From contig JACPOC010000015.1 in assembly GCA_016185125.1 (NCBI GenBank), positions 1 through 64,000 on the forward strand: a DNA stretch of 64,000 nucleotides, read 5' to 3'. Origin of the DNA: Bacteroidota bacterium. Lineage in GTDB: Bacteria; Bacteroidota; Bacteroidia; B-17B0; Aurantibacillaceae. Below are positions 13,201-56,217 of this stretch, piece by piece. A program made the position numbers and the translations under genes. Position 1 is the first letter of the stretch; every line of letters begins with the position of its first letter. The notes beneath the pieces were generated by a model, which was given only the letters and a program-made list of their open reading frames with translations, made no database searches and was not told where the DNA came from.

Positions 13201-13307
13201 TCTGGTTTATGAGCATTACTCTTATGTTTACTCTTTACTTTGATATATTTAAACGTGTTATTGATGGTTTAGGGAATATTAGTTTTTTACAGAAAAAAAG
13301 AGCGTAA
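10221..13307 (+). CDS. TerB-like/ABC transporter fusion (ABCG-like half transporter)
   Basis: A 1028-residue protein. Residues 1-145 are helical and resemble the TerB-like domain (MQMFAIIAKVDG, then FIYSSNEISEQEYEFI). Residues ~155-240 form a beta-rich region that may be FHA-like. Residues ~248-460 are an ABC ATPase: Walker A GGSGAGKST (282-290), signature ISGGQRKRL (about 388), Walker B VLFVDEP (about 408) and switch His near 445. Hydrophobic segments follow from about 590, as in ABC2-type permeases, with a ~200-residue charged helical insertion before the last membrane segment. The ATPase-then-permease order is that of the ABCG/White family. The substrate is unknown. Confidence 0.85.
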   Translation: MSERILRALMQMFAIIAKVDGINNTGRQIVQSFLKQQLSQEQVETYLAIFDEYLESHQQAGKKKEGAAKRTSVNSVKVLKICNQINQELGQPQKVIVLLRLLEFIYSSNEISEQEYEFIITVAESFNIPTEEFQALKSFIEDKAEVIPESPNILIINNTENGYKNHTKHIFSETITQDIRIMQIQSVGMYVLRIYGNLELILNGQGISKERVHIFTPGSSIRSSKIKPIYYSDVISRFLSDESQAKITFEVKNLEFKFKGGKLGLRDVNINEESGKLIGIMGGSGAGKSTLLNVLNSMETPSGGSVKINGKNIHTENEEIKGVIGHVSQDDLLIEELTVYQNLFYNAKLCFGNLSDEEIGKLCNDLLADLGLSETRMLKVGSPLEKTISGGQRKRLNIGLELIRQPSVLFVDEPTSGLSSRDSENIMDLLKELALKGKLIFVVIHQPSSDIYKMFDKLMILDVGGFPIYYGNPVDAVSYFKRLVNHVNAEESECWNCGNVNPEQIFNIIESKVLDEYGNLTYTRKVNPAEWNVHYKELIESNIHSEKKHTEIPESIFKIPNIFKQFKVFITRDVKSKLTNTQYLMINLLEAPVLAFILAFFLRYYNTDDETSQGYVFRLNENIPAYMFMSVVVALFIGLTVSAEEIIKDRKIRKRESFLNLSKGSYLWSKIILMFTISAIQTLTFVIVGNYVLGIKGMFADYWLILFSTSCFANILGLNISSAFNSAVTIYILIPLLIIPQLLFAGVVVKFDKLNPIVAQQGGVPVIGEAMASRWAFEALAVNQYKQNEYEKNFYKIEKSKSIASYKNNYWKQKITNKMLKLDKALNEGADKKTMEADINALHLAIKNETEFNNKVKCAVLNDITPDKYNKAIATSLKNDYLKNLEEYYRKVDKAARESEEKIVHGLITKLGGNDNFVKFRDSYENESLTQAVKNAGDISGEKCLEKNGKFIQTVDPIFADPTESKFGSAHFYAPRKNFLGSYFSTFWFNICVIWFMSITLMFTLYFDIFKRVIDGLGNISFLQKKRA

Positions 13308-13355
13308 ATTTGCTCTTAATTTCTGTTTGATTTTACAAATTTAATACTTCCAATT

Positions 13356-14228
13356 ATGCATCAATTTCCGGAAACCGAATTAATTCTTACACCCGAAAAC
13401 CGTGTGTACCATATCAACCTAAAAGCCGAAGATATTGCCGATGATGTTATTGTAGTTGGCGACCAGCACCGGGTAGCGCAAATTTCTTCGCGTTTCAGTA
13501 AAATAGATTTTAAAACCGAACACCGGGAGTTTGTAACACACACTGGCATATTTAACGGTAAAAGAATTACTGTACTCAGCACCGGTATTGGCCCTGATAA
13601 CATTGATATTGTATTAAACGAACTCGACGCGGCCGTAAATATCAATCCCGAAAAAAGAGAACTTAACAAAACTCTTCGCTCGCTCAACATCATTCGCCTT
13701 GGTACTAGTGGCGCGCTCCAAGCAGATATTCCGGTTAACGGGTTAGTGGTTAGTTCTCACGGCCTTGGCCTGGATGGTCTGCTTAATTTTTATGAATCCT
13801 GGAAAACCATTAATGAAGATGACATCAGCGAGGAGTTTATCCGCCATACCTCTTGGCTTAAAAATTTACCTTATCCTTATTGTGTAGCGGCAAGCAGCCA
13901 ATTGCTTGAAAAATTTCGTGCAGATAATCATGTAGGCATTACCGCTACTGCTCCCGGCTTTTACGGTCCCCAGGGAAGAGAGATAAGATTAAAGGCTGCC
14001 ATGCATAATCTTAATGAATCCCTTACTTCCTTTCGGTTAAATAATCAGCGCATTACGAATTTTGAAATGGAAACTTCGGCTTTATATGGCTTGGGGAAAT
14101 TACTTGGACACAATTGTTTAACCGTTTGTGTTATTATTGCCAATAGAGTTAGAAAAGAATTTACTTCTGATTATAAAAAAAGTGTTGAAGTGCTTATAGA
14201 AAATTGTTTGAACAGGTTAACCAGTTAA
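13356..14228 (+). CDS. Nucleoside phosphorylase (uridine phosphorylase-like)
   Basis: A 290-residue member of the PNP/UDP phosphorylase family, which cleaves nucleosides with phosphate to base and ribose-1-phosphate. Visible family signatures are the phosphate/ribose-binding GTSGAL in IRLGTSGALQADIPV (near residue 115), STGIGPDNIDIV (near 66) and the purine/pyrimidine-site segment NFEMETSALYGL near residue 237 (the Glu-Met-Glu core binds ribose). It lies 1 bp before pyrF, an arrangement that couples pyrimidine salvage and synthesis. Whether uridine is the true substrate cannot be read from the sequence. Confidence 0.85.
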   Translation: MHQFPETELILTPENRVYHINLKAEDIADDVIVVGDQHRVAQISSRFSKIDFKTEHREFVTHTGIFNGKRITVLSTGIGPDNIDIVLNELDAAVNINPEKRELNKTLRSLNIIRLGTSGALQADIPVNGLVVSSHGLGLDGLLNFYESWKTINEDDISEEFIRHTSWLKNLPYPYCVAASSQLLEKFRADNHVGITATAPGFYGPQGREIRLKAAMHNLNESLTSFRLNNQRITNFEMETSALYGLGKLLGHNCLTVCVIIANRVRKEFTSDYKKSVEVLIENCLNRLTS

Positions 14229-14229
14229 A

Positions 14230-15054
14230 ATGAACAGATCGGAATTAATAAATCAGATAAAAACAAAAAAAACATTTTTGTGTGTAGGGCTTGATCCCGA
14301 CATGAATAAAATACCCAAGCATATTCTCGATGAAAATGCCGAAGATCCTATTTACGAATTTAATATTCAAATAATAGATGCTGCCGCGCCTTATTGTGTG
14401 GCCTTTAAACCCAATAACGCTTTTTACGAAGCTTACGGCTTAAGCGGCATTGAGAGTCTGGAAAAAACTCTTAAGTATATCAAGAAAAATTATCCTGATC
14501 ATTTTTTAATTGCTGATGCTAAACGCGGCGATATTGGAAATACCAGTGCCATGTATGCCAACGCTTACTTTAAACGCTTAGGCGCAGATGCCATAACCGT
14601 TGCCCCGTATATGGGAAGCGATTCGGTAATGCCGTTTTTGCAGTATGAAAATAAATGGGCCATTGTGCTGGGTTTAACAAGTAACGAGGGTTCGGCCGAT
14701 TTTCAGCAAGTAACCTTTAAGGGTAAAGCATTTTACCACTATGTAATTGAAACCTGCGCCAAATGGGGCAATCAAAATAATATGATGTTTGTTGTAGGCG
14801 CTACAAAAGCCCCTATGCTTGCCGAAGTACGAACCATTGTACCCGATCATTTTCTTCTGGTTCCGGGAGTAGGTGTTCAGGGCGGAAGTTTGGAAGAGGT
14901 TTGCAAATTTGGCCTTACCAAAGATGTAGGCTTGCTTATCAACTCTAGCAGGAGCATTATTTACGCTTCGGGTGGTACAGATTTTGCAGAAAGAGCAGCA
15001 GTCGAGACCCAAAAGATCGCTTCTCAAATGAAAGAATTAATGAAAAACATCTAA
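14230..15054 (+). CDS. pyrF: Orotidine 5'-phosphate decarboxylase
   Basis: A 274-residue protein, the length of the 'type 2' OMP decarboxylase subfamily. It catalyses the last step of de novo UMP synthesis. The catalytic segment DAKRGDIGNT (Asp96, Lys98, Asp101) is intact, and the N-terminal CVGLDPD and the C-terminal LLVPGVGVQGG phosphate-binding region are present. It starts with ATG 1 bp after the nucleoside phosphorylase stop, so the two are probably translationally coupled. Confidence 0.95.
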   Translation: MNRSELINQIKTKKTFLCVGLDPDMNKIPKHILDENAEDPIYEFNIQIIDAAAPYCVAFKPNNAFYEAYGLSGIESLEKTLKYIKKNYPDHFLIADAKRGDIGNTSAMYANAYFKRLGADAITVAPYMGSDSVMPFLQYENKWAIVLGLTSNEGSADFQQVTFKGKAFYHYVIETCAKWGNQNNMMFVVGATKAPMLAEVRTIVPDHFLLVPGVGVQGGSLEEVCKFGLTKDVGLLINSSRSIIYASGGTDFAERAAVETQKIASQMKELMKNI

Positions 15055-15090
15055 TCTATAATAACCGTTTTACAATAAAAGCATTAATAA

Positions 15091-15405
15091 ATGGAAGAAA
15101 CCAATAATCAAAACCAGCCTCATTTAGATATTGAATTGAGTGAAGAAATTGCGGAAGGTATTTACTCAAACCTGGCAATAATTACACACTCACAAAGCGA
15201 ATTTGTAATTGACTTTGTAAAAATAATGCCCGGCGTGCCCAAAGCCCGTGTTAAATCAAGAATTCTTTTAACTCCCCAACATGCCAAACGCTTGGTTAAA
15301 GCTTTGGCCGAAAATCTGAGTAAATTTGAACAACAGCATGGTAAAATTAAAGATTTTGACACTCCTTTTCCAATGAATTTTAATGGCCCCACAGGTCAAG
15401 CCTGA
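15091..15405 (+). CDS. DUF3467 family protein
   Basis: A 104-residue acidic cytosolic protein matching the DUF3467 pattern: EIAEGIYSNLAIITHSQSEF, then DFVKIMPG and VKSRILLTPQHAKRLVKALA. Members are widespread in Bacteroidota and of unknown role. It follows pyrF by 36 bp on the same strand. Confidence 0.85.
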   Translation: MEETNNQNQPHLDIELSEEIAEGIYSNLAIITHSQSEFVIDFVKIMPGVPKARVKSRILLTPQHAKRLVKALAENLSKFEQQHGKIKDFDTPFPMNFNGPTGQA

Positions 15406-15755
15406 TAAAAATCATTAAGAACGGCAAGGCTTTAAGCCGAATCAGTATTAATAATCCTTAGTAATAGAGTTTTCTATTACTTCTTGGTGCACTCAAATAA
15501 CCCTCCTTTAATTCGTTTTTATAGAAGTTGAAAGTTTTTAAAGGAAACTTTAAAAGCTTCCTTACATTCAACTCATTATTTCTTCAAAAAAATAAATAAT
15601 GATTAAAACTTAGGGTTCAAACCATCATTTTTTATAACTAATTCATTTACAGTACTTTAAAAAGTGTTAAAATATTCATAGTTTTCAACAATTCGACGAA
15701 ATGATTGCTTCTGTATGTTTAACCCATTAACTTCATTATACCAAATTAATCGTAA
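15406..15755 (+). other. Intergenic region with three predicted stem-loops
   Basis: No gene is visible in these 350 bp. Stem-loops: GGCTT/AAGCC inside an outer CGGC/GCCG near 15421-15440; a perfect 9-bp stem AGTAATAGA/TCTATTACT with a GTTT loop near 15461-15482; and a nested stem with outer AGTTGAA (15526) and TTCAACT (15567) enclosing AAGGAA (15541) and TTCCTT (15558). The first could terminate the pyrF/DUF3467 transcript. The others may lie in the 5' leader of the giant T9SS cargo. Confidence 0.4.
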
Positions 15756-18700
15756 ATGAATAAATTTTTATTGCCTTTCGCATTCCTTCTTTTTGCAGGA
15801 ATATTTTTAAACAATTCTTTCGCACAAAAATCCAAAAAGCCGGATTATAATTGGTCGGATCCATCCGAAAATTTTTATGTAACACAGGCGCGCATGAACG
15901 CTTATTATAAAAAGTTTGAAAAAGAATTAGCAAACGAAAAAAAAGGAAGTTCCGTAACTAAAGCAACAGCTCGTAAAGTGGGTGCCGAAGAAGAGAAAGA
16001 ACTCGCCGGCTATGAATTATATAAGCGTTGGGAATACATGGTTGCCCCTCGTGTTTATCCCTCAGGCGATAAAACTTTATTTTCAAAGGCTTTTGAAGAA
16101 TATCAAGCTTACAAAATTCAAAACTCTCAACAAAAATTAATTGGAACGGGTGCTTCTGTCCTGTCAAATACATGGCAGCCAATTGGTCCTTTTGGAGATC
16201 TTACAGGTGCAAATGTGGGTCGTATTAACGCCTTAAGATTTGATCCTGCAAGTGCCACCGGATATTGGGCTTGTGCCCCCGCCGGAGGTTTGTGGAAAAC
16301 CGGTAACAATGGCAGCAGTTGGAGTACTAACACCGATCAACTAACTATCACGGGCTGTTCCGATGTGGTGTTTGATCCTACTAATTCTCAAAATATGTTT
16401 TTAGCTACCGGTGATGGCGAGGCAGGCGATAACTATAGCATTGGTGTTTTAAAATCAACCAACGGTGGTGTTACTTGGGGAAGCACAGGCTTATCTTATG
16501 CCGTTATTAACGGAGTTAAAATTTATAAATTATTAATTAACCCCTTAAATAAGAACACAATTTTTGCAGCCACATCTGCTGGTTTACAGCGCACTTCAAA
16601 CGGCGGAACTACATGGAATCCGGTAATAACCACAGGTGTAATTACAGATATTGAATACAAACCAAATGATACAACCACTGTTTACGCGGTAAGTAAAAGT
16701 TTTTATTTATCAACTAATGGCGGAACTTCTTTTTCTGCTATAACTGCAGGGTTACCCACTTCATCAGCAAATAATCGTTTAGCTATTGCGGTTACTCCTG
16801 CCAATCCGGCCTTTGTATATGTTGTTGCAAGTGCGGCTTCTAATAGTGGTTTTTTAGGTTTTTATCAGTCAACCAACAGCGGAACTTCTTTTACAAATAA
16901 AGCTACTACCCCAAATTTATTAGGATGGGCATCTGCCGGTAACGATGCGGGCGGACAAGGATGGTACACACTTTCAATTGCCGCTTCACCTACTAATGCT
17001 AATGAGGTTGTAGTTGGAGGGGTAAACATTTGGCGTACATTAAATGCCGGAACCAGTTGGAATATTTTTGCTCATTGGACGGGAACAGGCGCGCCTTATG
17101 TACACGCCGATGTACACGATCTTATTTATAAAAGCGGAACTACTTTATTTGTAGGCTGTGATGGAGGGGTGTTTGTAACGTCTAATAGCGGAAGCAGTTT
17201 TTCTGCTATGAACGGTAACATGAATATTTCTCAAATTTATAAAATCGGGCTTTCAGCAAGCACCTACAGCCGTGCAATTACCGGACATCAGGATAACGGA
17301 ACCAATATTTACAGCGGTGGCTGGAGTGGCACCATGGGGGGCGATGGCATGAATTGCTTTATCGATCAAACCAATGATAACGTGATGTATGGTGAGCAAT
17401 ATAACGGCTCTTTTAACAGAACCACCAATGGCGGCGGCAGTTGGACAGCTATTACCACAGGGATGACCGGCAACGGGGCGTGGGTAACTCCATGGCATCA
17501 AGATCCTATAGTTGCCAATGCCAACACTATTTATGGAGGCCGTCAGCAAATGTTTAAATCTACCAATCAGGGAACCAATTGGGCTCAAATAGGTACTATG
17601 GGTGGTACAGGCAGTATTGTAGAATTTGCAGTAGCGCCATCCAACAATCAGGTAATTTATGTTATTAAAGGAAATGCCTTGTATAAAACCATCGACGGAG
17701 GCACTACCTGGACCGCCGTTACAGGCACACTTCCCGTGGGCAGCGCGCAATTGAGCTGGATAACTGTTAAAGATACAGATCCAAACAGTGTTTGGGTTAC
17801 TTTTTCGGGATACTCTGCACCAGACAAAGTGTTTCAATCAACAGATGGTGCCGCCACTTGGACTAATTACTCCACCGGCCTGCCTAATTTACCTGCCAAT
17901 TGCATTACCTATTGGAATGGTACCAACAATGGCTTATACATTGGCTGTGATGTAGGAGTATATTATCGTGATGCAGGAATGACCAGTTGGGGACTATACA
18001 ACGCAGGCCTTCCAAACGTAATAGTGCAGGATATATCTATTTTTTATCCCTTAGGTAAACTGCGCATTGCAACTTATGGCAGGGGCGTGTGGGAAGCAGA
18101 TCTTTACAACAGTGGCACAATGGCTCCTATTGCCAACTTTATGGCCGATAAAACATTCATCTGTCCGGCAATGACCATAAACTTTACCGATCAATCAACT
18201 TTTGTACCTACAACCTGGAACTGGATATTTCAGGGAGGTGCGCCTGCCACTTCTACTGTGCAAAACCCTTCTATTGTTTATAATACCCCCGGAACTTACA
18301 GTGTTTCTTTAACCGCGGCCAATGCCAACGGTTCCAGTGTGTTAACCAAAACACTTTATATTACTGTTTCGCCTACCAATGTGTTGCCTTTAGTGGAAGG
18401 ATTTCAGGGAACAGGTTTTCCTCCGGCAGACTGGCAGAATTTTGATGCAGGCTCAGATAATTTAATGTGGAATAAAAGCACAACTGTTGGTAAAGCCAGC
18501 ACGGCTTCCATCCGATACGATAATTATAATTTAAATTCGGTTAATATCCGCGACGAAATGAGAACTCCAAAATATAATTTTAGTGGCTTAAGTTCCGCAA
18601 AATTATACTTTGATGTGGCTTATGCGCGTTACGATGCAATTTACAGCGATACACTGGCTGTAAGGGTAACCACCAATTGCGGTTTAAGTTATACTCAAGT

Positions 18701-20696
18701 TTATATTAAGGGTGGCCCTACTTTGGCAACCGCTCCTGATTTTAGTACTGCTATTTTTGTTCCTACAGCGGCTCAGTGGCGTACCGATACGGTATCATTA
18801 AGTGCCTTTGCCGGTCAATCTAACGTAATGGTTTCTTTTCAAAATCACGGGCAATATGGCCAGGCCTTGTATATAGATAATGTAAATATATCAGGGGTTT
18901 CGGTGAGTGCGGTACCCACTGCTTCCTTCTCTGCATTTGCTCCCAATTATTGCGTAGGGCAAGCTATTGCCTTAACCGATCAATCTACCAATAGCCCAAC
19001 AAGCTGGAACTGGCAAATGCCGGGTGCCGGAACCACCACATCGTCAGCCAGTAATCCAACGGTTACTTATGCCGCCAGTGGGGTTTATACTGTTACTTTG
19101 ATTGCTTCCAATTCAATTGGTTCCAGCAGTCCTGTAACACAAACCATTCAGGTTAACGCATTGCCAACGGTGGCTGTTTCTTCAACTGCAAACGCTATTT
19201 GTTTGGGGCAGAATATCACCTTAAGCGCAAGCGGAGCTTCTACTTACAGTTGGAATACCGGAGCAACTACAAGCAATTTGGTTGTATCACCAACAAGCAA
19301 TACTTCTTATACAGTTACCGGAACTAACGCAAGCGGCTGTAAAAATACTGCTGTAAAAAGCATAACGGTTAACGCCTTGCCTACAGTAAACATTACCGGT
19401 GGCGGAAGTTCAGTTTGCAGCGGTTCTTCAGTAAATTTAACTGCAGGTGGCGCCAATACGTATACTTGGAGCACATCGGCCACTACCGCATCGGTGGCGG
19501 TAACAGTAACAGCCAATACCACTTATTCAGTTACAGGAACCAATGCAAACGGTTGCAGTAACACAGCAGCTACTACAGTAAGTGTAAATCCAACGCCAGC
19601 CATTACTGCGCCAAACGGAGCCATTTGTCCGGGCAGTACCTTTACTATTACACCATCCGGCGCAGTTTCGTATAGTTATTCAAGTGGTTCGCAGTTTGTT
19701 TCCCCATCTACAACTACTTCTTACACAGTAACAGGTTCATCTGCACAAGGTTGTTCAGCGGTTCCGGCAGTTATTACGGTATCAGTTACATCTTTTTTGG
19801 CTGTTTCTATAACAGGGGCTAATGCCGTATGTTCAGGATCTTCGGTAATTTTAACTGCCAACGGTGCCAGCACTTATACTTGGAATAACGGTGCGCTTAC
19901 AAATACCATTTCAGTAAGCCCTTCTTCAGCCACAACTTATTCGGTATTAGGAAGCGGAGGTTCGGGTTGTACAGGAACAAATACGTATACTGTTGCTGTT
20001 AACGCCCTGCCTGTTATTTCAATTTCTCCTTCTTCTAATAATGTTTGCAGCGGACAAAGTGTTTCCCTAACCGGAAGCGGCGCAAGCACCTATACTTGGA
20101 ATACCGGTGCCACTACTAACGCCATAGCAGTAAGCCCTACTGCTAACACCTCTTATTCATTAAGCGGCACAAACGGCTCAGGCTGTACGGGTTCATCGAC
20201 CGTTAGCATTACGGTTAATTCTGCCCCTAACATTAGTGCAAGCTCCAATACCCCTTTGCTGTGTACCGGACAAAGTGCCTCTATATCCGCTACAGGTGCA
20301 GTTACATATACTTGGAGCAACGGTATGAACGGCACTCCAATTGTTGTTTCTCCAACAGTTAATACCACTTATACCGTAAACGGAACGGATGCAAACGGTT
20401 GTCAAAACAGCTCGGTAATTACTCAGTTTGTTTCTATTTGTACAGGAATAAATAATTTAAGTAATAACACCTCTGTTTTTGTGGTATATCCTAATCCAAA
20501 TAAAGGGGATTTCACGATTGAATTAAGTGAAACATCAGAAATCATTATTTATAATTTACTTGCCGAGATTATTGTAGATAAAGTTATGACTCAAGGCAAG
20601 CACAGTATTAATCTTGATAATAAAGCGGCCGGTGTTTACTTTGTAAAATCTATGTCGGGAAACAAGAGGCAGGTTGTTAAATTAATAGTACAATAA
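15756..20696 (+). CDS. Giant T9SS-secreted beta-propeller/PKD/Ig-like protein
   Basis: A 1646-residue protein with a signal peptide (to about NNSFAQ). Residues ~130-780 hold repeated Asp-box motifs (STNGGVTW, SNGGTTW, TTNGGGSW, TIDGGTTW), the hallmark of sialidase/VPS10-type propellers. A PKD domain follows (~790-875, FTDQSTFVPTTWNW), then a jelly-roll-like segment (~880-1050), a second PKD (~1055-1130), and about five Ig-like repeats of ~85 residues with the pattern CSG-x-S-V-x-L and TYTWN. A T9SS type A sorting domain closes it (VVYPNPNKGDFTIEL). It may be an adhesin or polysaccharide-binding or glycoside-active surface protein; no catalytic residues are identified. Confidence 0.85.
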   Translation: MNKFLLPFAFLLFAGIFLNNSFAQKSKKPDYNWSDPSENFYVTQARMNAYYKKFEKELANEKKGSSVTKATARKVGAEEEKELAGYELYKRWEYMVAPRVYPSGDKTLFSKAFEEYQAYKIQNSQQKLIGTGASVLSNTWQPIGPFGDLTGANVGRINALRFDPASATGYWACAPAGGLWKTGNNGSSWSTNTDQLTITGCSDVVFDPTNSQNMFLATGDGEAGDNYSIGVLKSTNGGVTWGSTGLSYAVINGVKIYKLLINPLNKNTIFAATSAGLQRTSNGGTTWNPVITTGVITDIEYKPNDTTTVYAVSKSFYLSTNGGTSFSAITAGLPTSSANNRLAIAVTPANPAFVYVVASAASNSGFLGFYQSTNSGTSFTNKATTPNLLGWASAGNDAGGQGWYTLSIAASPTNANEVVVGGVNIWRTLNAGTSWNIFAHWTGTGAPYVHADVHDLIYKSGTTLFVGCDGGVFVTSNSGSSFSAMNGNMNISQIYKIGLSASTYSRAITGHQDNGTNIYSGGWSGTMGGDGMNCFIDQTNDNVMYGEQYNGSFNRTTNGGGSWTAITTGMTGNGAWVTPWHQDPIVANANTIYGGRQQMFKSTNQGTNWAQIGTMGGTGSIVEFAVAPSNNQVIYVIKGNALYKTIDGGTTWTAVTGTLPVGSAQLSWITVKDTDPNSVWVTFSGYSAPDKVFQSTDGAATWTNYSTGLPNLPANCITYWNGTNNGLYIGCDVGVYYRDAGMTSWGLYNAGLPNVIVQDISIFYPLGKLRIATYGRGVWEADLYNSGTMAPIANFMADKTFICPAMTINFTDQSTFVPTTWNWIFQGGAPATSTVQNPSIVYNTPGTYSVSLTAANANGSSVLTKTLYITVSPTNVLPLVEGFQGTGFPPADWQNFDAGSDNLMWNKSTTVGKASTASIRYDNYNLNSVNIRDEMRTPKYNFSGLSSAKLYFDVAYARYDAIYSDTLAVRVTTNCGLSYTQVYIKGGPTLATAPDFSTAIFVPTAAQWRTDTVSLSAFAGQSNVMVSFQNHGQYGQALYIDNVNISGVSVSAVPTASFSAFAPNYCVGQAIALTDQSTNSPTSWNWQMPGAGTTTSSASNPTVTYAASGVYTVTLIASNSIGSSSPVTQTIQVNALPTVAVSSTANAICLGQNITLSASGASTYSWNTGATTSNLVVSPTSNTSYTVTGTNASGCKNTAVKSITVNALPTVNITGGGSSVCSGSSVNLTAGGANTYTWSTSATTASVAVTVTANTTYSVTGTNANGCSNTAATTVSVNPTPAITAPNGAICPGSTFTITPSGAVSYSYSSGSQFVSPSTTTSYTVTGSSAQGCSAVPAVITVSVTSFLAVSITGANAVCSGSSVILTANGASTYTWNNGALTNTISVSPSSATTYSVLGSGGSGCTGTNTYTVAVNALPVISISPSSNNVCSGQSVSLTGSGASTYTWNTGATTNAIAVSPTANTSYSLSGTNGSGCTGSSTVSITVNSAPNISASSNTPLLCTGQSASISATGAVTYTWSNGMNGTPIVVSPTVNTTYTVNGTDANGCQNSSVITQFVSICTGINNLSNNTSVFVVYPNPNKGDFTIELSETSEIIIYNLLAEIIVDKVMTQGKHSINLDNKAAGVYFVKSMSGNKRQVVKLIVQ

Positions 20697-46117: not shown

Positions 46118-46525
46118 ATGTTAACAGAAGATCAGATAAAAAATATTTTAAGAGAAACTTCATTTAAAACTTCCCGCTCCGGTGGAAAAGGCGGGCAAAA
46201 TGTGAATAAACTTGAAACCAAAGTGGAGATTGAATTTAATCTTAACAGTTCGGAATGTTTAAGTCAGGAACAGAAGGAAATCATAATCTCTAAATCTACT
46301 GCTATAAATGAAGAGGGAATCTTAAAATTGGTTTGCAGTACGCATCGAACCCAACTTGAAAATAAAGAGGAAGTAAAGGAAAAGTTAATTTCACTTTTAA
46401 ATAAGTATTTAAAACCGATGAAGAAAAGGTATGCTACTAAGCCTTCGCGCTCCAGTAAAATGAAAAAACTGGATAGTAAAAAAAAGCGTGGGGAAACTAA
46501 AAGCCTTCGTAAAAAAATTCTTTAA
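46118..46525 (+). CDS. arfB: Ribosome-rescue peptidyl-tRNA hydrolase ArfB
   Basis: A 135-residue protein with the GGQ motif in RSGGKGGQNVNKLETKVE (Gly25-Gly26-Gln27) and a basic C-terminal tail (RATKPSRS, KKLDSKKKRG) that inserts into the mRNA channel of stalled ribosomes. Together with SmpB in this window it gives the cell two rescue pathways. MBOAT begins right after its stop. Confidence 0.93.
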   Translation: MLTEDQIKNILRETSFKTSRSGGKGGQNVNKLETKVEIEFNLNSSECLSQEQKEIIISKSTAINEEGILKLVCSTHRTQLENKEEVKEKLISLLNKYLKPMKKRYATKPSRSSKMKKLDSKKKRGETKSLRKKIL

Positions 46526-47932
46526 TTGCTCTTCAACTCCCTCATATTTACTCTTTTTTTGCCATTAGTGTTTATTGGTTATTGGCTTACTCCTGCCAGA
46601 TTCAGAAACTATTTTTTGCTTGCAGCTTCCTATTATTTTTATTTTAGTTATAACCCTTGGTTTTTATTATTATTAATCGGCACCTCGGCATTCGATTATT
46701 GGTGTGCAAAGCAAATCCACAAATCAGAAGAAAGAAATGCAAGAAAAACATATTTAGTTTTAAGCCTGGTTTCTAATTTAGGAGTTCTGTTTATTTTTAA
46801 ATACTTTGTTTTTTGTTATAATTCCTCTGTTACCACGTTTCATCTTCCCCTTTCCGTTTTAAATAATTTTATTATTCCGGCCGGGCTTTCGTTTTACACT
46901 TTTCAATCGTTAAGTTATACGATTGACGTTTACAGAAGGAAGTATAAACCTAATGATACTCTTTTAGATTTTTTATTATTCGTGTCGTTTTTTCCTCACA
47001 TGGTTGCGGGTCCTATTGTGAGATACACAAGCCTAATGCCTCAGTTAAAATTGCGTTCTTATTTTAAGAACATTGATTGGCAAAGTTTTGCTTCACTTAC
47101 CATTTGGGGTTATTTTAAAAAATTGGTAATTGCAGATAATCTTAATCTGCTGGTTACTCCTGTGTTTGATAATATTACAATGTACAGCGGGGTTGAGCTT
47201 TTATTAGCCGGATTTCTATTTGTCATACAGGTTTATTGCGATTTTAGTGGGTACAGCGATATAGCAACCGGCGTGGCAAAATTGTTCAACATCAATTTAA
47301 GTTTAAACTGGCGCAGGCCATTATTTTCTTGGTCTTTACACGAATTTTGGCGCCGGAATCACATCAGTATTACAACCTGGTTTAGAGATTATTTATACAT
47401 TGGTTTAGGTGGAAATAGAGTAGGGTATAAGCGCTGGCTTTTAAATATTTTTCTTGTTTTTTTAATAAGTGGATTTTGGCATGGTTCTAACTTTACATTT
47501 ATAATATGGGGGTGTATGCACGGAATTATGTATATAATTGAGATTCTTTTAAAAAGAATTTTCCCTCAAATTATAATACCTAAAGCGCTGGGCTGGCTTT
47601 ATCTTATTTTATTTCATACCATAACACTTATAGCTTTTAGAGCTAATAGTGTAACAGATCTTACTTACATGTATAAACATATTTTTAGTGTTCAGGAATA
47701 TTATTTTTCTTTTCAAACTTTTCTTTTCACTCAGGGTAAATTCTATTTTTTAATAATGTTGTTTGCAATCTTTTTATTATTCGTAAAAGAGTTTAATGAA
47801 GAACATGCTATTGTAAATCGCTTTCCGCGTTTTTATTCAGCGCTAAAGCCTGTTGTTTATATTTTTTTTATAGCCTTAATTTTTATTTTTGGAAATTTTT
47901 CAGCTAATACTTTTATTTATTTTCAGTTTTGA
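46526..47932 (+). CDS. MBOAT family O-acyltransferase (AlgI/DltB-like)
   Basis: A 468-residue polytopic membrane protein with the AlgI-type signatures HEFWRRNHISITTWFRDYLY and SGFWHGSNFTFIIWG containing the catalytic His, and MVAGPIVRY near residue 155. It transfers acyl (usually acetyl) groups across the membrane to a glycan. The start is TTG at 46526, immediately after the arfB stop. Its stop overlaps the SGNH-like gene start, so the two are coupled. Confidence 0.9.
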   Translation: MLFNSLIFTLFLPLVFIGYWLTPARFRNYFLLAASYYFYFSYNPWFLLLLIGTSAFDYWCAKQIHKSEERNARKTYLVLSLVSNLGVLFIFKYFVFCYNSSVTTFHLPLSVLNNFIIPAGLSFYTFQSLSYTIDVYRRKYKPNDTLLDFLLFVSFFPHMVAGPIVRYTSLMPQLKLRSYFKNIDWQSFASLTIWGYFKKLVIADNLNLLVTPVFDNITMYSGVELLLAGFLFVIQVYCDFSGYSDIATGVAKLFNINLSLNWRRPLFSWSLHEFWRRNHISITTWFRDYLYIGLGGNRVGYKRWLLNIFLVFLISGFWHGSNFTFIIWGCMHGIMYIIEILLKRIFPQIIIPKALGWLYLILFHTITLIAFRANSVTDLTYMYKHIFSVQEYYFSFQTFLFTQGKFYFLIMLFAIFLLFVKEFNEEHAIVNRFPRFYSALKPVVYIFFIALIFIFGNFSANTFIYFQF

Positions 47933-48873
47933 TTAAACGCCTACTTATATATTTTATTTTTTTAACCGGTCTGTTATTTTTTATAAGGCATTTACATTAT
48001 TATGGTTTATTGAAGCAACAGAAGGGTTATTACGCAAAGTATAAAACAGCTTTTTTAGAAAAGAATGCTTTCGACGTAGTTTTTTTAGGTTCTTCGCGTG
48101 TGGAGATGCATTACAATACGCGGGTATTTGATAGTTTAACAGGCCGAAATTCTTTTAACCTTAGTTTGGCCGGAGCCACGCCCATAGTTGCGTTCGCAGC
48201 CTTAAAAGCCTATTTGTACCAGAGTAATAGCCCGGAGTATTTAATTTATGAAATAGATTATCATTTTTTAAAATACCCAAGTTGCGAAGTAAAGGAGTTT
48301 AATAATTATTTTCCGTTTTTATCAAACAAATCTTTGCGAAAAAATTTCAACCTTATCGACTCTCGCATAAATCACTTTTATTATAACCCATATTTTTCAC
48401 TTCCATATACGGGATTTAGAAATTTAAGTACTTCTTTGCACGGATGGTTAAACATTGCAAATAAAACAGATTCCCTTTTTTATAAAGGATATTTAAAAGA
48501 AGTGCTCAGGCCTCAACTTGATTTTATTCCAACTAAAGCGCAATATTCTTACTTTAATCCAATGGAAAGAAATTATTTAGATTCAATCATTATTCTATGT
48601 AAAGTAAAAAAAATCCATATTACTCTTTTAAGTTCTCCGCTTTTTGCTGGAGGAAAACTGGATGTTTCTAATAAACCCGCAATTATTTCACACCTTAAAA
48701 GTATAGCAGCCATAAACAAAATTGCCTATTTCGACCTATCTTCACTCCCTTTTTGCAATGATCGAACCTTGTTTGTAGATCACTTTCACATGAACTTTTA
48801 TGGAGCCGTTAAATTTACTGAATATTTAAGTAAACTTTATCACAATAAACTTAGGTTAAAAACGTTAAAATAG
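47929..48873 (+). CDS. Membrane-anchored SGNH-like O-acyltransferase partner
   Basis: A 314-residue protein with one N-terminal membrane anchor (LLIYFIFLTGLLFFIRH). SGNH-like residues are visible: Ser55/56 in VVFLGSSRVEMHY and the C-terminal Asp/His in FVDHFHMNFYGAV. Such proteins complete the acyl transfer started by MBOAT (as AlgJ/X and PatB do). The TTG start overlaps the MBOAT stop (TTGA). Assignment as an acyltransferase is inferred from the pair. Confidence 0.75.
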   Translation: MIKRLLIYFIFLTGLLFFIRHLHYYGLLKQQKGYYAKYKTAFLEKNAFDVVFLGSSRVEMHYNTRVFDSLTGRNSFNLSLAGATPIVAFAALKAYLYQSNSPEYLIYEIDYHFLKYPSCEVKEFNNYFPFLSNKSLRKNFNLIDSRINHFYYNPYFSLPYTGFRNLSTSLHGWLNIANKTDSLFYKGYLKEVLRPQLDFIPTKAQYSYFNPMERNYLDSIIILCKVKKIHITLLSSPLFAGGKLDVSNKPAIISHLKSIAAINKIAYFDLSSLPFCNDRTLFVDHFHMNFYGAVKFTEYLSKLYHNKLRLKTLK

Positions 48874-48915
48874 TGTATAAATTCCGGTTTTTGCCTTAAC
48901 TTTAATAAATCATTT

Positions 48916-50001
48916 ATGTTAAAATTCCTCATTCCTTCTTTTGTATTAGCAGCAATTTCTGTTAAGTCACAAATTGCGCCAAAATACAGTAACGAATTTT
49001 TAAATATTGGCGTAGGAGCCAGAGCCTTAGGTATGGGCAATGCCAACATAGCTTCGGTGCAAGGGGTTAATGCCGGTTACTGGAATCCCGCAGGTTTATT
49101 AAAGCAAAAGAACGATTTGGAAGTTGGTTTAATGCATGCTGAGTATTTCGCTGGAATTGCCAAATACGATTATATTGGCGTATCAAAATTAATTGACAGT
49201 AACAGCGTGGCCGCTTTATCTATTTTAAGGTTTGGTGTGGATAATATTCCTAATACACTCGATCTACAAGACGCCAACGGCAATATTGATTATAACCGAA
49301 TAACCACCTTTAACGCTGTGGATTTTGCAGCTCTGTTAAGTTATGCCCGGAAAATACCGCAATTAAAAGGTATTGAAGTAGGCGGCAATTTTAAAGTTAT
49401 AAGGCGTAAACTCGGTGAATTTGGCGGGGCTTGGGGTTTTGGAATGGATGCCGGAGCAATGTACAATTACAAGGAATGGAAATTTGCCGCTATGGGTCGT
49501 GATATTACCGGAACATTTAACGCTTGGAGCTATAATTTAAGCGATAAGGATATTGCAACTTTTAAACAAACGGGCAATGATGTGCCTTCCTCTTCATTAG
49601 AAATTACCGTTCCAAAATTAATTTTAGGGGGCGCAAGAACCTTTTTATTTTGGAAAAACAACATTTCGGTTTTAGGGGAAGTTAACCTTATTAATACATT
49701 TGATGGCAAGCGTAATACCGTTATTAAAACTAACTTATGGAGTTTGGAACCGGCCGTTGGAACCGAAATAGGATATAAAGGCTTTGTTTATTTACGCGGA
49801 GGTTTTGGAAATATTCAAAAACAATTAAGTGATAATGCCACCAAGTATATTACCACCTTTCAGCCTAATTTTGGCGTGGGGGTTAAATACAAGATTTTTA
49901 CCTTAGATTATGCCTTAACAGATATTGGCGACCGTTCCATCGCACTATATTCTAATATTTTTTCTTTGAAAATTGACTTTAATAAGAAGATGGGGAAGTA
50001 A
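48916..50001 (+). CDS. PorV/PorQ-family T9SS outer membrane protein (PorV2-like)
   Basis: A 361-residue protein with signal peptide (to about VKSQIAP) and the PorV/PorQ opening YSNEFLNIGVGARALGMGNANIA, then GYWNPAGLL, an outer-membrane beta-barrel of the FadL-like type. In T9SS, PorV proteins shuttle cargo to the PorU sortase. Adjacent to it is a very long C25 peptidase, the arrangement of the pair that annotation pipelines call PorV2/PorU2. It starts 42 bp after the SGNH-like gene. Confidence 0.85.
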   Translation: MLKFLIPSFVLAAISVKSQIAPKYSNEFLNIGVGARALGMGNANIASVQGVNAGYWNPAGLLKQKNDLEVGLMHAEYFAGIAKYDYIGVSKLIDSNSVAALSILRFGVDNIPNTLDLQDANGNIDYNRITTFNAVDFAALLSYARKIPQLKGIEVGGNFKVIRRKLGEFGGAWGFGMDAGAMYNYKEWKFAAMGRDITGTFNAWSYNLSDKDIATFKQTGNDVPSSSLEITVPKLILGGARTFLFWKNNISVLGEVNLINTFDGKRNTVIKTNLWSLEPAVGTEIGYKGFVYLRGGFGNIQKQLSDNATKYITTFQPNFGVGVKYKIFTLDYALTDIGDRSIALYSNIFSLKIDFNKKMGK

Positions 50002-50006
50002 AAAAC

Positions 50007-53000
50007 ATGAAAAAATTAATCTCAATAAGCATTTTTTGTTTATTGGCAATTACCCTTAAATCTCAATATGGTAATGGCTGGATTAATTATTCGCAGCAAT
50101 ATGTAAAATTCCCAATTTCAAAAGAAGGTATTTACCGAATCGATTCACTTACGCTTTCTTCCCACTATAATCTTAATACTCTCAATCCTCAAAACTTTCA
50201 AATATTTATTAAAGGCCAGGAACAAGCACTTTACATTAAAGGCGAAGCGGATGGCAAAATAAATACCGGCGATTATATTGAGTTTTATGCTAGTGCTGCT
50301 ATGGGCGATGTGGATTCGCTTCTGTATTGGAACATTAAATATCTTCCCAATCCTTATCTTCCTATTTTTAACGATACCATTTATGGATTTTTAACAGTAA
50401 ATAATAGTGTCAATAATAAACGTTACATTATAGAAACGGATACTAATTCTACCCTTTATCCTTTATCGCCTTATTTTTATTCAGAAAAAATATTCGCGCA
50501 AAAAAACAGTTATAACCGGGTGGAAGAATACGCCTCTGATGCGGCCGATCCGCGTTATACACAAGCTGAGGGCTATGGTTATAATTTCGGAATGGGTGCC
50601 AGCGTTAGTACCTCTTTCAATAATTTAAACACTTACACCTCATCCACTCTTCCCGGTTTTGTAACAGTCAGCTATTCCGGCAACAGTATAAATAATACAG
50701 TACTTACCGATCATCAAGTCAGTTTTTTTTATAAAGATCAAAGCTCTTCAAGCGTACTTTTACACGATACTGTATTTAAAGGGTTTGTGCCTGTGAAGCG
50801 TACTTTTGTGCTCAACCCGGCTAATGTTGCCAATACCAATTTCACATTAACATCAGTAGCTTCTCCTTCCTTTTCTTCTTTTTCCAATAACACCATCCTG
50901 CATTATATCCATTATTTTTATCCGCATACTTCCGATCTTAGTAATCAATCCTTTCAAAAATTATTTGTAGATAATAGTTCGGGCTCTGCAAAAAACTTCT
51001 TTAATTTTTCCAATTTTAATTTTGCAGGATCTTCGGAGGTGTTACTTTACGACATTACCAACAATAAAAAAATTGCAACTAAAATTTCGGGAGCCATGCT
51101 GGGCGCGGTTATTCCCAATGGCTCTGGCCGAAAATTGTGTGTACTGGCAGCGGAATCACAAACCATAAATATAACATCTTTAAAAAAAGTAAATAACCAA
51201 ACAGGTAGTTTTACCAATTTTACCGCGCTGGGTGGAAATAAACCTTACATCATTATTTATCATAATAAAACCAAAACAGGGGCATTACTGTATCAAAATT
51301 ACAGGCAAACTATTAACGGAGGCAGTTATAATACAATTGGCGCAGATATTGATGAGTTATATGAGCAGTTTAGCTTCGGGATAAATAAACATCCTGCTTC
51401 CATTAATAATTTTGCTCGTTACCTTAACAATAATTTACCAAGTAAACCGCTTTATTTCTTTTTAATAGGCAAGGCTATACAAAGTGCTTATTTGGCACCT
51501 TCCGATAAATCCAACCTTATTCCCTCCATGGGCATACCAAGCTGCGATAATTTGTTGATGGCAAATCTTACACCTACCACCAGCAACTGGTTAGTTCCTG
51601 AAATTCCCATTGGAAGATTGTCGGCCTTAACCAACAGTGAGGTTATAGTTTACCTTACTAAAGTTCAGCAACACGAAAGTTCCGTTCCCGCTGAATGGAA
51701 AAAGAAAGTACTTCATTTTGTTGGGGGTGATGAAGCTAATCTTGCCAACTTATTAAGTTCATACATGAGTATGTACGAACAAACAATTAAAGATACCTTG
51801 TTTGGGGCTAATGTGCTTACTTTTAAAAAAAACACCACAGCTCCAATTCAAATTAATATAAGTGATAGTATTAAAAACACCATCAGCAACGGCGCCGCAT
51901 TAATAAATTTTTTCGGACATGGTTCTGAGCAGGGATTTGACCAAGCCATTGATGATCCGGAAGTTTACAATAACCCGGGCAAATATCCTTTTATTATCGC
52001 TAACTCCTGCTATTCGGGCAATATTCATGTGGAAGGAAGGCGCTCGGTAAGCGAACGTTTTGTATTTTCAGATCAAAAAGGAAGTATTGGATTTTTGGCT
52101 TCAACTTCTCTTGGCTTTATCTATGCCTTACATAATTACACAAGCGGATTTTATCAGGCTCTATCAAGAACAAAATACAATGCCGGTATTGGCGATATTA
52201 TAAAAGAGGCTGTTTTAAAAAACTCTCAAACCACTGATCCCATTTCTCAGTTCACAGGATTGGATATGACTTTGCACGGAGATCCTGCCCTTAAAATCAC
52301 TAACGGAATTCTTCCTGATTATCAGATCAAAAACAGCAGCGTGGTATTCAATACTAAAAAATATAGCGACTCCATTGGCGTAACTATTCACATTACCAAT
52401 CTTGGCAAAGCTGTTCAGGATTCCTTTATTGTAAAAGTAGGGCGTTTTTTTCCTAACGGAGATTCTGCAATAATATTTAAAACAAAAAAAGCACCCCTGT
52501 TTAAGGATAGCGTTTCCTTTTTTACAGCAATTGATTTTAACCGCGGAATAGGACTCAATAAATTTAAAGTTAAAATAGATGAGTATAACGAAATTGCTGA
52601 AAATTTAGAAACAAATAATTCAACTAATGGCACGGTAGATGTTTTTATTCAAGGAGGCGATATCATGCCCGTGTACCCCTATAAATACGCGGTAGTTCCA
52701 AAAACTAATACCATCACCTTAAAAGCTTCCACTACCGATCCCTTTGCACCTTCGGGCACTTACCGTTTTCAGTTAGATACCTGCGATAAATTTAGTGCTC
52801 CTATACAAAATGTGTTAATTACCAGCAAAGGTGGTGTGCTTGAATGGGTGGTGAATTTGCCTTTTAAAGACAGTACCGTTTACTTTTGGAGGGTTAGTAG
52901 AGATAGTACTTTGCCAAATACGCCCTTTGCATGGCGTGAAAGCTCGTTTCAAACAATTACCACGCAACGCGGTTGGTCGCAAGCTCATTTTCATCAATTT

Positions 53001-55016
53001 AAAAATGATGCATTTCAATTTGTGAATTATAAGAAATCACAAAGAAAGTTTGTTTTTGAGAATACCAAGCACATTCTTAAAGCAAGAAATTTCTTTCAAA
53101 ATTCAGTTAATGTTTCTACTAACATTAATTATTTTTACGATAATATTACCATGGCCAGTTGGGGTTGTGGGCCTAACGGTTGGAATATTGCCGTTTTTGA
53201 TTCCATAAGTGCGCAGCCCCAATATGTTGTAAGTTTAAACTTTCCAACCCCCGGCGTGGGACCGTTTAATAGTTGCGCTTGTGTTGATTATCCTTTGCCT
53301 TATTATGCTTTTGGCGCAAATAACTATTGCGGTACAACTACTTGGAAAACAGATCTTGAACTTTTTTTAAATTCTATTTCTCCCAATAATTATGTTTTAG
53401 CCTATACGGTGGGCGAGGTGGCCCCAAATTATGCTCAGATTTCTACTTATAATAATTCATTATATAATGCTTTCGAAAGTATTGGAGCGGTAAGTATTAG
53501 AAATACTGTGGACTCGGTGCCTTATATTTTATTCGGCAGAAAAGGGATGGCGGCCGGGCAGGGTCACGAAGTTAAAGGCACTAAAAAAAGTTCTATCATT
53601 ACCCTCACCGATAGTATTCAAACGCGTTGGAACAGCGGGCATATAGCTTCCGAAATTATTGGCCCTTCTTTTAAATGGAAAAGTTTGCACTGGCGTGTAG
53701 AAAGTGTAGATGGTATTGCCGGCGACACTACCCTAATTAAAGTGGTAGGTTTTAAAAGTAATGGAGATAAAGATACCATTGCGGTTTTTGATGAGAACAA
53801 TACCGATGTTCTTAATTTGGAAAATTATGCCGATGCCTCGGTTTATCCTTACTTAAAATTAGTAGCCTTTATGAAGGATAACAAAAATCGCACTTCGCCT
53901 CAGTTAAAACGTTGGCAGGTACTCTATGACGAGGCTCCTGAGTGCGCTATTAATCCACTCAAAGGTTTCCAAAGCATCAACGATACCTTACAGGAAGGCG
54001 ACCAGGTAACCTTTACTTTTCCTATTGAAAACATTGGCGTTAAAAATTTTACAGATAGCCTTGTTATTACTTATTGGATAGAAGATAAGGATCGCAATAA
54101 AAAACCTCTGCCTCAAAAAATGAAATCAAAACCATTTGTTCCCGGACAGTTATTTATTGATACAGTTAAAATAAATACCTATCAGTTTACCGGAAACAAT
54201 TCCTTATGGCTATTTGTAAATCCTATTGGCAATTCACGTTATCAGAAAGAACAGCATCAATTTAATAATATTGGCCGCTATGGCTTTAAGGTTACTAAGG
54301 ATGTTACCAACCCTTTGTTGGATGTTACTTTTGACGGCATACGAATTTTGAATGGCGATATTGTTTCTGCCAAGCCAACTATTTTAATTACACTAAAAGA
54401 TGAAAATCAGTTTTTGAAATTGAACGATACCTCTGCCTTTACTGTTCTTCTTCAGTCACCCAATTCCTCTTCACAAAAACCTGTTTATTTCGGACAAGGT
54501 TTACAATTTATTCCGGCTAATTTGCCTAAGAACAGTTGTTCTATTATTTACACGCCGGTTTTACCGGTTGATGGAAAGTACAAATTAATTGTTCAGGCTA
54601 AAGACAGAAGTAACAATCGCTCCGGTGTTCAGAGTTATGAAATTCAATTTGAAATAAGCAATAAACCAAGCATTACCAACATTCTTAATTATCCTAATCC
54701 ATTTAGTACAAGTACCAAATTTGTATTTACATTAACCGGCAGCGAAGTACCCGAAGTATTCACCATCCAAATAATGACCATCAGCGGAAAGTTAGTGCGT
54801 GAAATTACACGTAGCGAACTTGGGCCATTACATATTGGCCGAAACATTACAGAATACTCTTGGGATGGGCGCGATGATTTTGGCGATAAATTAGCTAACG
54901 GTATATATTTATATAAAGTGCTTAATAAACTCAACGGCGAAAATATTGAAAAGTCAGGCAGCTCTGCAGATAAATTCTTTGTTAAGGAATTTGGGAAAAT
55001 GGTTATTATGAGGTAA
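50007..55016 (+). CDS. C25 (gingipain-like) peptidase, PorU2-like
   Basis: A 1669-residue protein with signal peptide (to about LLAITLKSQ). The C25 catalytic dyad is intact: His638 in NFFGHGSEQGF and Cys668 in IANSCYSGN. A CARDB-like segment (~770-870) follows, then beta-rich regions, and near the C-terminus a FlgD-like Ig domain (residues ~1560-1669, NYPNPFSTSTKF, SWDGRDDFGDKLANGIYLYK). Canonical PorU sortases are about 1100-1300 residues, so this is the long PorU2-like type. It starts 5 bp after the PorV-like gene. Confidence 0.85.
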   Translation: MKKLISISIFCLLAITLKSQYGNGWINYSQQYVKFPISKEGIYRIDSLTLSSHYNLNTLNPQNFQIFIKGQEQALYIKGEADGKINTGDYIEFYASAAMGDVDSLLYWNIKYLPNPYLPIFNDTIYGFLTVNNSVNNKRYIIETDTNSTLYPLSPYFYSEKIFAQKNSYNRVEEYASDAADPRYTQAEGYGYNFGMGASVSTSFNNLNTYTSSTLPGFVTVSYSGNSINNTVLTDHQVSFFYKDQSSSSVLLHDTVFKGFVPVKRTFVLNPANVANTNFTLTSVASPSFSSFSNNTILHYIHYFYPHTSDLSNQSFQKLFVDNSSGSAKNFFNFSNFNFAGSSEVLLYDITNNKKIATKISGAMLGAVIPNGSGRKLCVLAAESQTINITSLKKVNNQTGSFTNFTALGGNKPYIIIYHNKTKTGALLYQNYRQTINGGSYNTIGADIDELYEQFSFGINKHPASINNFARYLNNNLPSKPLYFFLIGKAIQSAYLAPSDKSNLIPSMGIPSCDNLLMANLTPTTSNWLVPEIPIGRLSALTNSEVIVYLTKVQQHESSVPAEWKKKVLHFVGGDEANLANLLSSYMSMYEQTIKDTLFGANVLTFKKNTTAPIQINISDSIKNTISNGAALINFFGHGSEQGFDQAIDDPEVYNNPGKYPFIIANSCYSGNIHVEGRRSVSERFVFSDQKGSIGFLASTSLGFIYALHNYTSGFYQALSRTKYNAGIGDIIKEAVLKNSQTTDPISQFTGLDMTLHGDPALKITNGILPDYQIKNSSVVFNTKKYSDSIGVTIHITNLGKAVQDSFIVKVGRFFPNGDSAIIFKTKKAPLFKDSVSFFTAIDFNRGIGLNKFKVKIDEYNEIAENLETNNSTNGTVDVFIQGGDIMPVYPYKYAVVPKTNTITLKASTTDPFAPSGTYRFQLDTCDKFSAPIQNVLITSKGGVLEWVVNLPFKDSTVYFWRVSRDSTLPNTPFAWRESSFQTITTQRGWSQAHFHQFKNDAFQFVNYKKSQRKFVFENTKHILKARNFFQNSVNVSTNINYFYDNITMASWGCGPNGWNIAVFDSISAQPQYVVSLNFPTPGVGPFNSCACVDYPLPYYAFGANNYCGTTTWKTDLELFLNSISPNNYVLAYTVGEVAPNYAQISTYNNSLYNAFESIGAVSIRNTVDSVPYILFGRKGMAAGQGHEVKGTKKSSIITLTDSIQTRWNSGHIASEIIGPSFKWKSLHWRVESVDGIAGDTTLIKVVGFKSNGDKDTIAVFDENNTDVLNLENYADASVYPYLKLVAFMKDNKNRTSPQLKRWQVLYDEAPECAINPLKGFQSINDTLQEGDQVTFTFPIENIGVKNFTDSLVITYWIEDKDRNKKPLPQKMKSKPFVPGQLFIDTVKINTYQFTGNNSLWLFVNPIGNSRYQKEQHQFNNIGRYGFKVTKDVTNPLLDVTFDGIRILNGDIVSAKPTILITLKDENQFLKLNDTSAFTVLLQSPNSSSQKPVYFGQGLQFIPANLPKNSCSIIYTPVLPVDGKYKLIVQAKDRSNNRSGVQSYEIQFEISNKPSITNILNYPNPFSTSTKFVFTLTGSEVPEVFTIQIMTISGKLVREITRSELGPLHIGRNITEYSWDGRDDFGDKLANGIYLYKVLNKLNGENIEKSGSSADKFFVKEFGKMVIMR

Positions 55017-55101: not shown

Positions 55102-56217
55102 ATGACTAACGACGCATTTGAACCTACGTCAGATATTGCTACCGCCATTAAATGTAAAAACTGTGGCGCTGATCTCAAATTTGCCGCCGGCTCACAGAGT
55201 TTAAATTGCGGTTATTGTAATACCAATAATGAAATTATAATTCCGGAAACCGTTATAGCTGAAAACGATTTTAATTATTTTTTAGATCAGCATGCTGCTC
55301 TAAACGAACAACAAACTTTATCTACCGTTAAGTGCGATAGCTGCGGAGCATCCACCACACTTGCGCCTAATGTTACTTCCTCTAATTGTCCGTATTGCGA
55401 TACTCCTCAAGTAATTAAAAACGCCTCAACATGCAGCGTTATTAAGCCTGCCTATATGCTGCCTTTTAAAATAGTGCGCAACGATGCTAAAAATGAGTTT
55501 ATAAAATGGGTAAACAGTTTATGGTTTGCGCCCAATAAATTAAAAGACTACGCCAAAAGCAGTGCCGAAAAACTAAAAGGCGTGTATATGCCTTATTGGA
55601 CTTACGATACCAACACAGACAGTACTTATTACGGACTTCGGGGCGAGTATTATTACGAAACACAAAGTTACAGGGATGCTAACGGCAATGTACAAACCCG
55701 CCAGGTACAACGCACCGCTTGGTTTCCGGCTAGTGGAACTGTAAACAATTCTTTCGACGATCTTTTAGTATGCGCATCTAATTCTTTACCGCAAAAATTA
55801 GTAAGTGAACTCGAGCCTTGGGATTTGCCTGAATTGGTTTCCTATAACGATAAGTTTTTGGCGGGCTTTATTACAGAAAGTTATCAAACACAGTTGAAGG
55901 AAGGTTTTGAAATTGCGAAGGGAAACATGCAAGCGGCAATTAAAACTTCGGTTAAAAGCGATATTGGTGGAGATGTACAACAGATACAATCCTTAAACAC
56001 AAATTATAATGATATAAAATTTAAGCATATACTTTTACCTCTTTGGATAAGTGCTTACCGGTATAATAATAAAGTGTACCGCTTTACGGTTAACGCGCGC
56101 ACAGGCGAAGTACAGGGCGAAAGGCCTTACAGTGCCATAAAAATATTCTTTTTTGTTTTAGCTATTCTCGCTATTTTGGGTATAGGTATTTATTTTTATT
56201 CTGAAATGCAAAATTAA
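55102..56217 (+). CDS. Zinc-ribbon protein with C-terminal membrane anchor
   Basis: A 371-residue protein. Two zinc ribbons open it: Cys18/21/36/39 (KCKNCGADLKF, NCGYCN) and Cys78/81/96/99 (VKCDSCGAS, NCPYCD). The middle contains GVYMPYWTYDTNTDS, typical of a conserved Bacteroidota/Firmicutes family sometimes annotated as a PriA-like helicase, and the end is a membrane segment (FFFVLAILAILGIGIYFY). No helicase motifs are seen. Relatives often adjoin SPFH/YdjI-like genes such as the one at 26391. Confidence 0.8.
   Translation: MTNDAFEPTSDIATAIKCKNCGADLKFAAGSQSLNCGYCNTNNEIIIPETVIAENDFNYFLDQHAALNEQQTLSTVKCDSCGASTTLAPNVTSSNCPYCDTPQVIKNASTCSVIKPAYMLPFKIVRNDAKNEFIKWVNSLWFAPNKLKDYAKSSAEKLKGVYMPYWTYDTNTDSTYYGLRGEYYYETQSYRDANGNVQTRQVQRTAWFPASGTVNNSFDDLLVCASNSLPQKLVSELEPWDLPELVSYNDKFLAGFITESYQTQLKEGFEIAKGNMQAAIKTSVKSDIGGDVQQIQSLNTNYNDIKFKHILLPLWISAYRYNNKVYRFTVNARTGEVQGERPYSAIKIFFFVLAILAILGIGIYFYSEMQN

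Follow-up and report, generated by a model that had tools for sequence, protein, structure and literature searches.

This study concerns four genes within a 64,000-nucleotide stretch of DNA from a Bacteroidota bacterium (contig JACPOC010000015.1, positions 1 to 64,000; here called the window), in which a predicted envelope O-acyltransferase pair, an MBOAT protein and an SGNH protein, is encoded directly upstream of porV2 and porU2, relatives of the shuttle and sortase genes of the type IX secretion system (T9SS). All four genes share one strand (Table 1), with 42 bp between the SGNH gene and porV2 and 5 bp (50002-50006) between porV2 and porU2, as against a 4-base overlap of the latter two in most relatives. 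The gene order, coordinates, strand, gaps and TTGA overlap reported in an initial annotation of this DNA were all confirmed on the sequence. So were its PorV2-like and PorU2-like labels, both proteins scoring above the NCBIfam cut-offs, and its C25 peptidase (PF01364, E=3.4e-57). The four-gene arrangement is beyond chance, because porU2, porV2 and the MBOAT gene are each kept in dozens of genomes of the order to which the window belongs.

Table 1. Genes and promoter-like element at the porV2-porU2 locus of the window.
Feature	Position	Strand	Remarks
arfB	46118..46525	+	Abuts MBOAT gene, 0 bp gap; NF006718 112 bits, cut-off 100
MBOAT O-acyltransferase, PorV2-linked subfamily	46526..47932	+	TTG start, 468 amino acids; PF03062 E=1.4e-14
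SGNH acyltransferase partner (predicted)	47929..48873	+	TTG start, 314 amino acids; 4-base TTGA overlap with MBOAT gene
-7-like promoter box (Bacteroidota type), TAACTTTA	48897..48904	+	19 nt 5' of porV2 ATG
porV2, FadL-type outer-membrane shuttle, PorV family	48916..50001	+	361 amino acids; NF052325 468.6 bits, cut-off 325
porU2, C25 cysteine peptidase/sortase-like	50007..55016	+	1669 amino acids; NF052324 658 bits, cut-off 450

PorU removes the sorting domain of T9SS cargo proteins and couples them to an amine of anionic lipopolysaccharide (A-LPS) (PMC10202324; PMC7468200), and such conjugation to a surface glycan is its known job in the PorV/PorU attachment complex of Porphyromonas gingivalis. 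The window likewise encodes a PorV-family barrel and a C25 sortase-like protein with Cys and His residues, the catalytic His638 and Cys668 of PorU2 being kept in at least 98% of 93 homologs. By analogy with PorU, PorU2 may act as a sortase. PorV2 and PorU2 nevertheless form families separate from the P. gingivalis type: PorU2 falls below the cut-off of the housekeeping PorU model (NF033707, 204 bits, cut-off 420), PorV2 reaches 44 of the 250 bits set by the ordinary PorV model, and the housekeeping PorU (1253 bits) is encoded elsewhere, on contig C22. PorV2 is common, occurring in about 80% of the sampled class genomes (319/396), and both proteins carry only a "putative" name at NCBI; no paper describing PorU2 or PorV2 was found in the literature searched. 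Two side observations concern porU2 itself. Relatives of porU2 at four loci (L018, L032, L058 and L075) have about 10 kb of upstream DNA and no porV2 beside them, and are possibly orphan or second copies. In genome G223 (locus L182, positions 10641-15700 after re-orientation), porU2 is broken into three open frames of 812, 291 and 602 amino acids, through decay or assembly error.

In the MBOAT protein, His279 and His319 of the WHG-His motif are near-invariant among 47 homologs, as is a C-terminal FIYFQF sequence containing Tyr465, and the general pattern FXYXXF was found in 60 of 60 sequences. This pattern is the C-terminal acyl-shuttle motif, which is carried either on the MBOAT protein or on a DltX-like peptide (PMC12148441); in PatA, the acyl group passes from acetyl-CoA to the Tyr of the motif, on to the serine of the SGNH partner and finally to the polymer (PMC12148441). 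The nearest solved relatives are DltB structures (E=7.8e-20), and the protein belongs to a subfamily distinct from DltB, scoring 108.4 bits against the DltB equivalog TIGR04091 with its cut-off of 375. The SGNH protein matched no Pfam family above cut-off, giving weak similarity to DUF1574 only. It has a single N-terminal helix (residues 2-28), and residue conservation picks out GSSR at 54-57 and D284-x-x-H287, Ser56 being the candidate nucleophile as read from the GxS block. Its AlphaFold2 model (predicted local distance difference test score, pLDDT, 88) has an SGNH/GDSL fold, with Z scores of 17.1 to TesA and 14.0 to the C. jejuni GDSL esterase CJ0610C, and its Foldseek matches include DltD and PatB.

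The catalytic His, the FIYFQF motif and the SGNH fold with its Ser and DxxH lead to the conclusion that the pair is, as judged from sequence and model, a complete and ordinary MBOAT-SGNH envelope acyltransferase, predicted to transfer an acyl group to an extracytoplasmic polymer. The initial annotation had proposed such a pair, and the proposal stands on domain, His, shuttle motif and fold alike. The acyl group is probably acetyl derived from acetyl-CoA, this being the usual case. The pair resembles PatA/PatB, which O-acetylate peptidoglycan, AlgI/AlgJ and DltB/DltX/DltD in its catalytic His and C-terminal FXYXXF on the MBOAT protein, and in an SGNH partner that is encoded by an overlapping gene, is membrane-anchored and has a fold of the DltD/PatB class. 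It differs from PatA/PatB, AlgI/AlgJ and DltB/DltD in adjoining the T9SS genes porV2 and porU2 rather than a polymer synthesis cluster, and no paper linking MBOAT-SGNH proteins to the T9SS was found in the literature searched.

The neighbourhood was surveyed in 70 genomes of the order, from ten genera and at least 85% complete, with the MBOAT subfamily defined by a score of at least 460 bits (the next MBOATs reach at most 332). PorV2 exceeded its cut-off in all 70. The MBOAT subfamily was present in 42, directly 5' of porV2 in 32 and elsewhere in 10. The 5' neighbour of the pair is arfB in genera g1 and g7; a divergent CDP-alcohol phosphatidyltransferase gene, which from its sequence we take to be pssA, occupies that position in g5, g10 and most carriers from other families. 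A class-wide search of 396 genomes rules out that the neighbourhood is confined to one order, as the first related loci had suggested. A high-scoring MBOAT is encoded in 12 genomes from outside the order, 11 of which also have PorV2 above cut-off, and in 11 of 11 the two are linked: the MBOAT gene is directly upstream of porV2 in nine, 5.2 kb upstream without an SGNH gene in G170, and downstream in G332, where the pair lies directly 3' of porU2 and is thus linked despite a different gene order. All linked MBOATs form a single clade, to which the MBOAT of the twelfth carrier (G222), a genome lacking PorV2 above cut-off, does not belong. When contigs were compared by hand, none of about 70 lower-scoring MBOAT paralogs lay within 20 kb of porV2 among the matches listed, the rows counted being those whose genome also had PorV2 among the matches listed.

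The MBOAT ortholog also occurs alone, without an SGNH gene, at five loci (L156-L158 in G036-G038; L152 and L155 in G039 and G040). A fructosamine-kinase-like gene, c43, precedes it in G036-G038, as it does the MBOAT gene in the porV2 slot of G043 and G044.

The pair and porV2-porU2 have not always shared a history. In a tree of concatenated MBOAT and SGNH sequences, eight genomes of genus g10 join g7, and a g10+g5 clade is rejected (approximately unbiased (AU) test, p=7e-4); the PorV2+PorU2 tree, by contrast, groups these eight securely with the rest of g10 (support 100) and rejects the alternative (AU 5e-51). The MBOAT tree alone does not reject the g10+g5 clade (AU p=0.14); only MBOAT and SGNH jointly do so, and the eight-genome group was chosen for testing after the first MBOAT tree. 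Seven of these genomes nonetheless carry the pair between pssA and porV2, where their g10 relatives G057, G063 and G064 have only another gene, c16. This conflict between trees indicates that, independently of porV2-porU2, the slot either exchanged its pair for another or regained one; recombination in the shared flank at porV2 may have steered the exchange.

The gene c16 encodes a polytopic protein of about 375 amino acids, present in nine of the 70 genomes of the order, and all nine copies are in the slot, alone or before the MBOAT gene. Two members fall just below Pfam cut-offs for GT-C glycosyltransferases (PF03901, 22.1 of 23.8; PF13231, 24.2 of 26.1). The protein had no match among solved structures, and a model built from 4 sequences reached a pLDDT of only 43. 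A second polytopic protein, c45 (about 490 amino acids), has no convincing family match in Pfam or NCBIfam; four genomes of the order carry its gene in the slot, and five class genomes carry it close to pssA/porV2. At three loci (L186, L187 and L188; G088, G190 and G238) a c45-like gene stands beside pssA and is followed by three opposite-strand genes before porV2. Loci for O-antigen modification alternate periplasmic glycosyltransferases and O-acyltransferases. The slot resembles them in holding exchangeable GT-C-like and O-acyltransferase genes in one place, and differs in being chromosomal and beside a sortase pair. On the best reading, the slot 5' of porV2 is an accessory, exchangeable place for periplasm-facing glycan modification next to PorV2/PorU2.

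The gap upstream of porV2 also contains a promoter-like element. The pattern TAnnTTT[AG] was enriched before divergent genes (60/113 against 22 expected) and likewise before those tandem genes that have a wide upstream gap (51/99 against 16.3), and was not enriched before tightly spaced tandem genes (28/153 against 23.3). It occurred in 32 of the 33 gaps between SGNH gene and porV2 (9.1 expected from shuffling), at -9 to -25.

We assign a probability of about 0.45 to the reading set out here, in which two separable modules, the acyltransferase pair and PorV2/PorU2, occupy one locus. MBOAT His319 would take the acyl group and place it on Tyr465 of the protein's own periplasmic FIYFQF, from which SGNH Ser56 would pick it up and pass it on, in ester linkage, to the hydroxyl of a glycan sugar on the periplasmic side. 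PorV2 would shuttle a subset of T9SS cargo, and PorU2 would cut the sorting domain and join the cargo to a surface glycan; we infer both the relay and the sortase action from the better-known systems described above. Conjecturally, the acylated glycan would be the PorU2 acceptor or its precursor, and the slot would be where lineages keep exchangeable periplasmic glycan-modifying enzymes, whether MBOAT-SGNH or GT-C-like c16. Replacement in place and the restriction of c16 to the slot make a shared glycan more plausible than adjacency alone would. The idea put forward in the initial annotation, that the acylation may modify the glycan used or recognised by this second sortase, has partial support. 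That these slot enzymes edit PorU2's own anchor glycan, with lineages re-tailoring the attachment sugar, seems rather doubtful. As precedent, a deoxyhexose in the T9SS linker of P. gingivalis bears a C4H4O3 group that is still unassigned (PMC13086638), and T9SS linkers vary between species (PMC11969387).

Several observations weigh against this two-module reading. The initial annotation had suggested looking for the same neighbourhood across Bacteroidota; the linkage is indeed conserved outside the genus and reaches several further families, but the neighbourhood, although real, is loose. In the order, 28 of the 70 genomes have PorV2 without this MBOAT, and in 10 the modules are apart, with the break between the SGNH gene and porV2 or with the MBOAT gene elsewhere and lacking its partner. 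Across the class, PorV2 occurs in 319 genomes and the MBOAT group in 24, so most PorV2 genomes do without it. The divergent housekeeping pssA also stays beside porV2 across the class, and the box conserved upstream of porV2 implies that porV2-porU2 probably has its own transcription start.

Such facts suit the view that the pair acylates an unrelated envelope polymer, such as capsule, O-antigen or peptidoglycan, and is a coincidental, slowly eroding neighbour at a locus that rearranges slowly. Frequent loss or separation of the pair, whose presence beside porV2 requires a minimum of 11 changes when mapped onto the PorV2/PorU2 tree, agrees with it, as does the promoter-like box that porV2 has to itself. 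Since gene order here is slow to change and pssA is kept beside porV2 in the same way, adjacency alone is weak evidence. Other observations are stronger and count against coincidence: a lineage that exchanged or regained the pair has it in the old slot, G332 retains the linkage in a different gene order, c16 is found only in the slot, and other MBOATs are not near porV2 among the matches listed. We give coincidence a substantial chance, short of an even one.

The same linkage evidence would apply if the pair acylated not the anchor glycan but the cargo of PorV2/PorU2, on its O-glycans or elsewhere, and protein O-glycosylation is reported in Bacteroidota (PMC8729774). The conserved block, however, contains no cargo gene, only the shuttle-sortase pair being kept with the acyltransferase pair, and we consider this version improbable. 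Least probable is one obligate operon of all four genes, with acylation needed by PorU2 for recognition: the common strand, the 42-bp and 5-bp gaps and the 4-base overlap would fit it, but the conserved -7-like box before porV2 in 32 of 33 loci, together with the frequent loss of the pair from genomes that keep PorV2-PorU2, argues against it as the default, although some read-through into porV2 may occur, and the co-transcribed unit envisaged in the initial annotation is not supported on the same grounds, with the box lying within the 42-bp gap and the two pairs standing apart in some genomes.

On the two-module reading, the linked acylation module would offer a concrete way into the question of which structure receives the cargo of PorU2. 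With linking sugars varying by species and the C4H4O3 group of P. gingivalis unexplained, enzymes that modify the anchor become a testable question at this locus.

Some minor observations concern the surroundings. In most families of the class (L040-L078, L174-L189) the pssA-like gene and porV2 point away from each other, often with a purS-like gene beyond pssA, and the proximity of pssA to porV2 is deeply conserved. Downstream of porU2, the window encodes a 371-amino-acid protein with zinc-ribbon-like CxxC motifs (55102-56217) that matched no family above cut-off; among the loci read, it occurs 3' of porU2 in the window and L021 only. Elsewhere in the window (15756-20696) lies a gene for a 1646-amino-acid protein that has a type A sorting domain of the T9SS (41.6 bits against TIGR04183, cut-off 23) and weakly matches glycosylhydrolases of the F510_1955 type.

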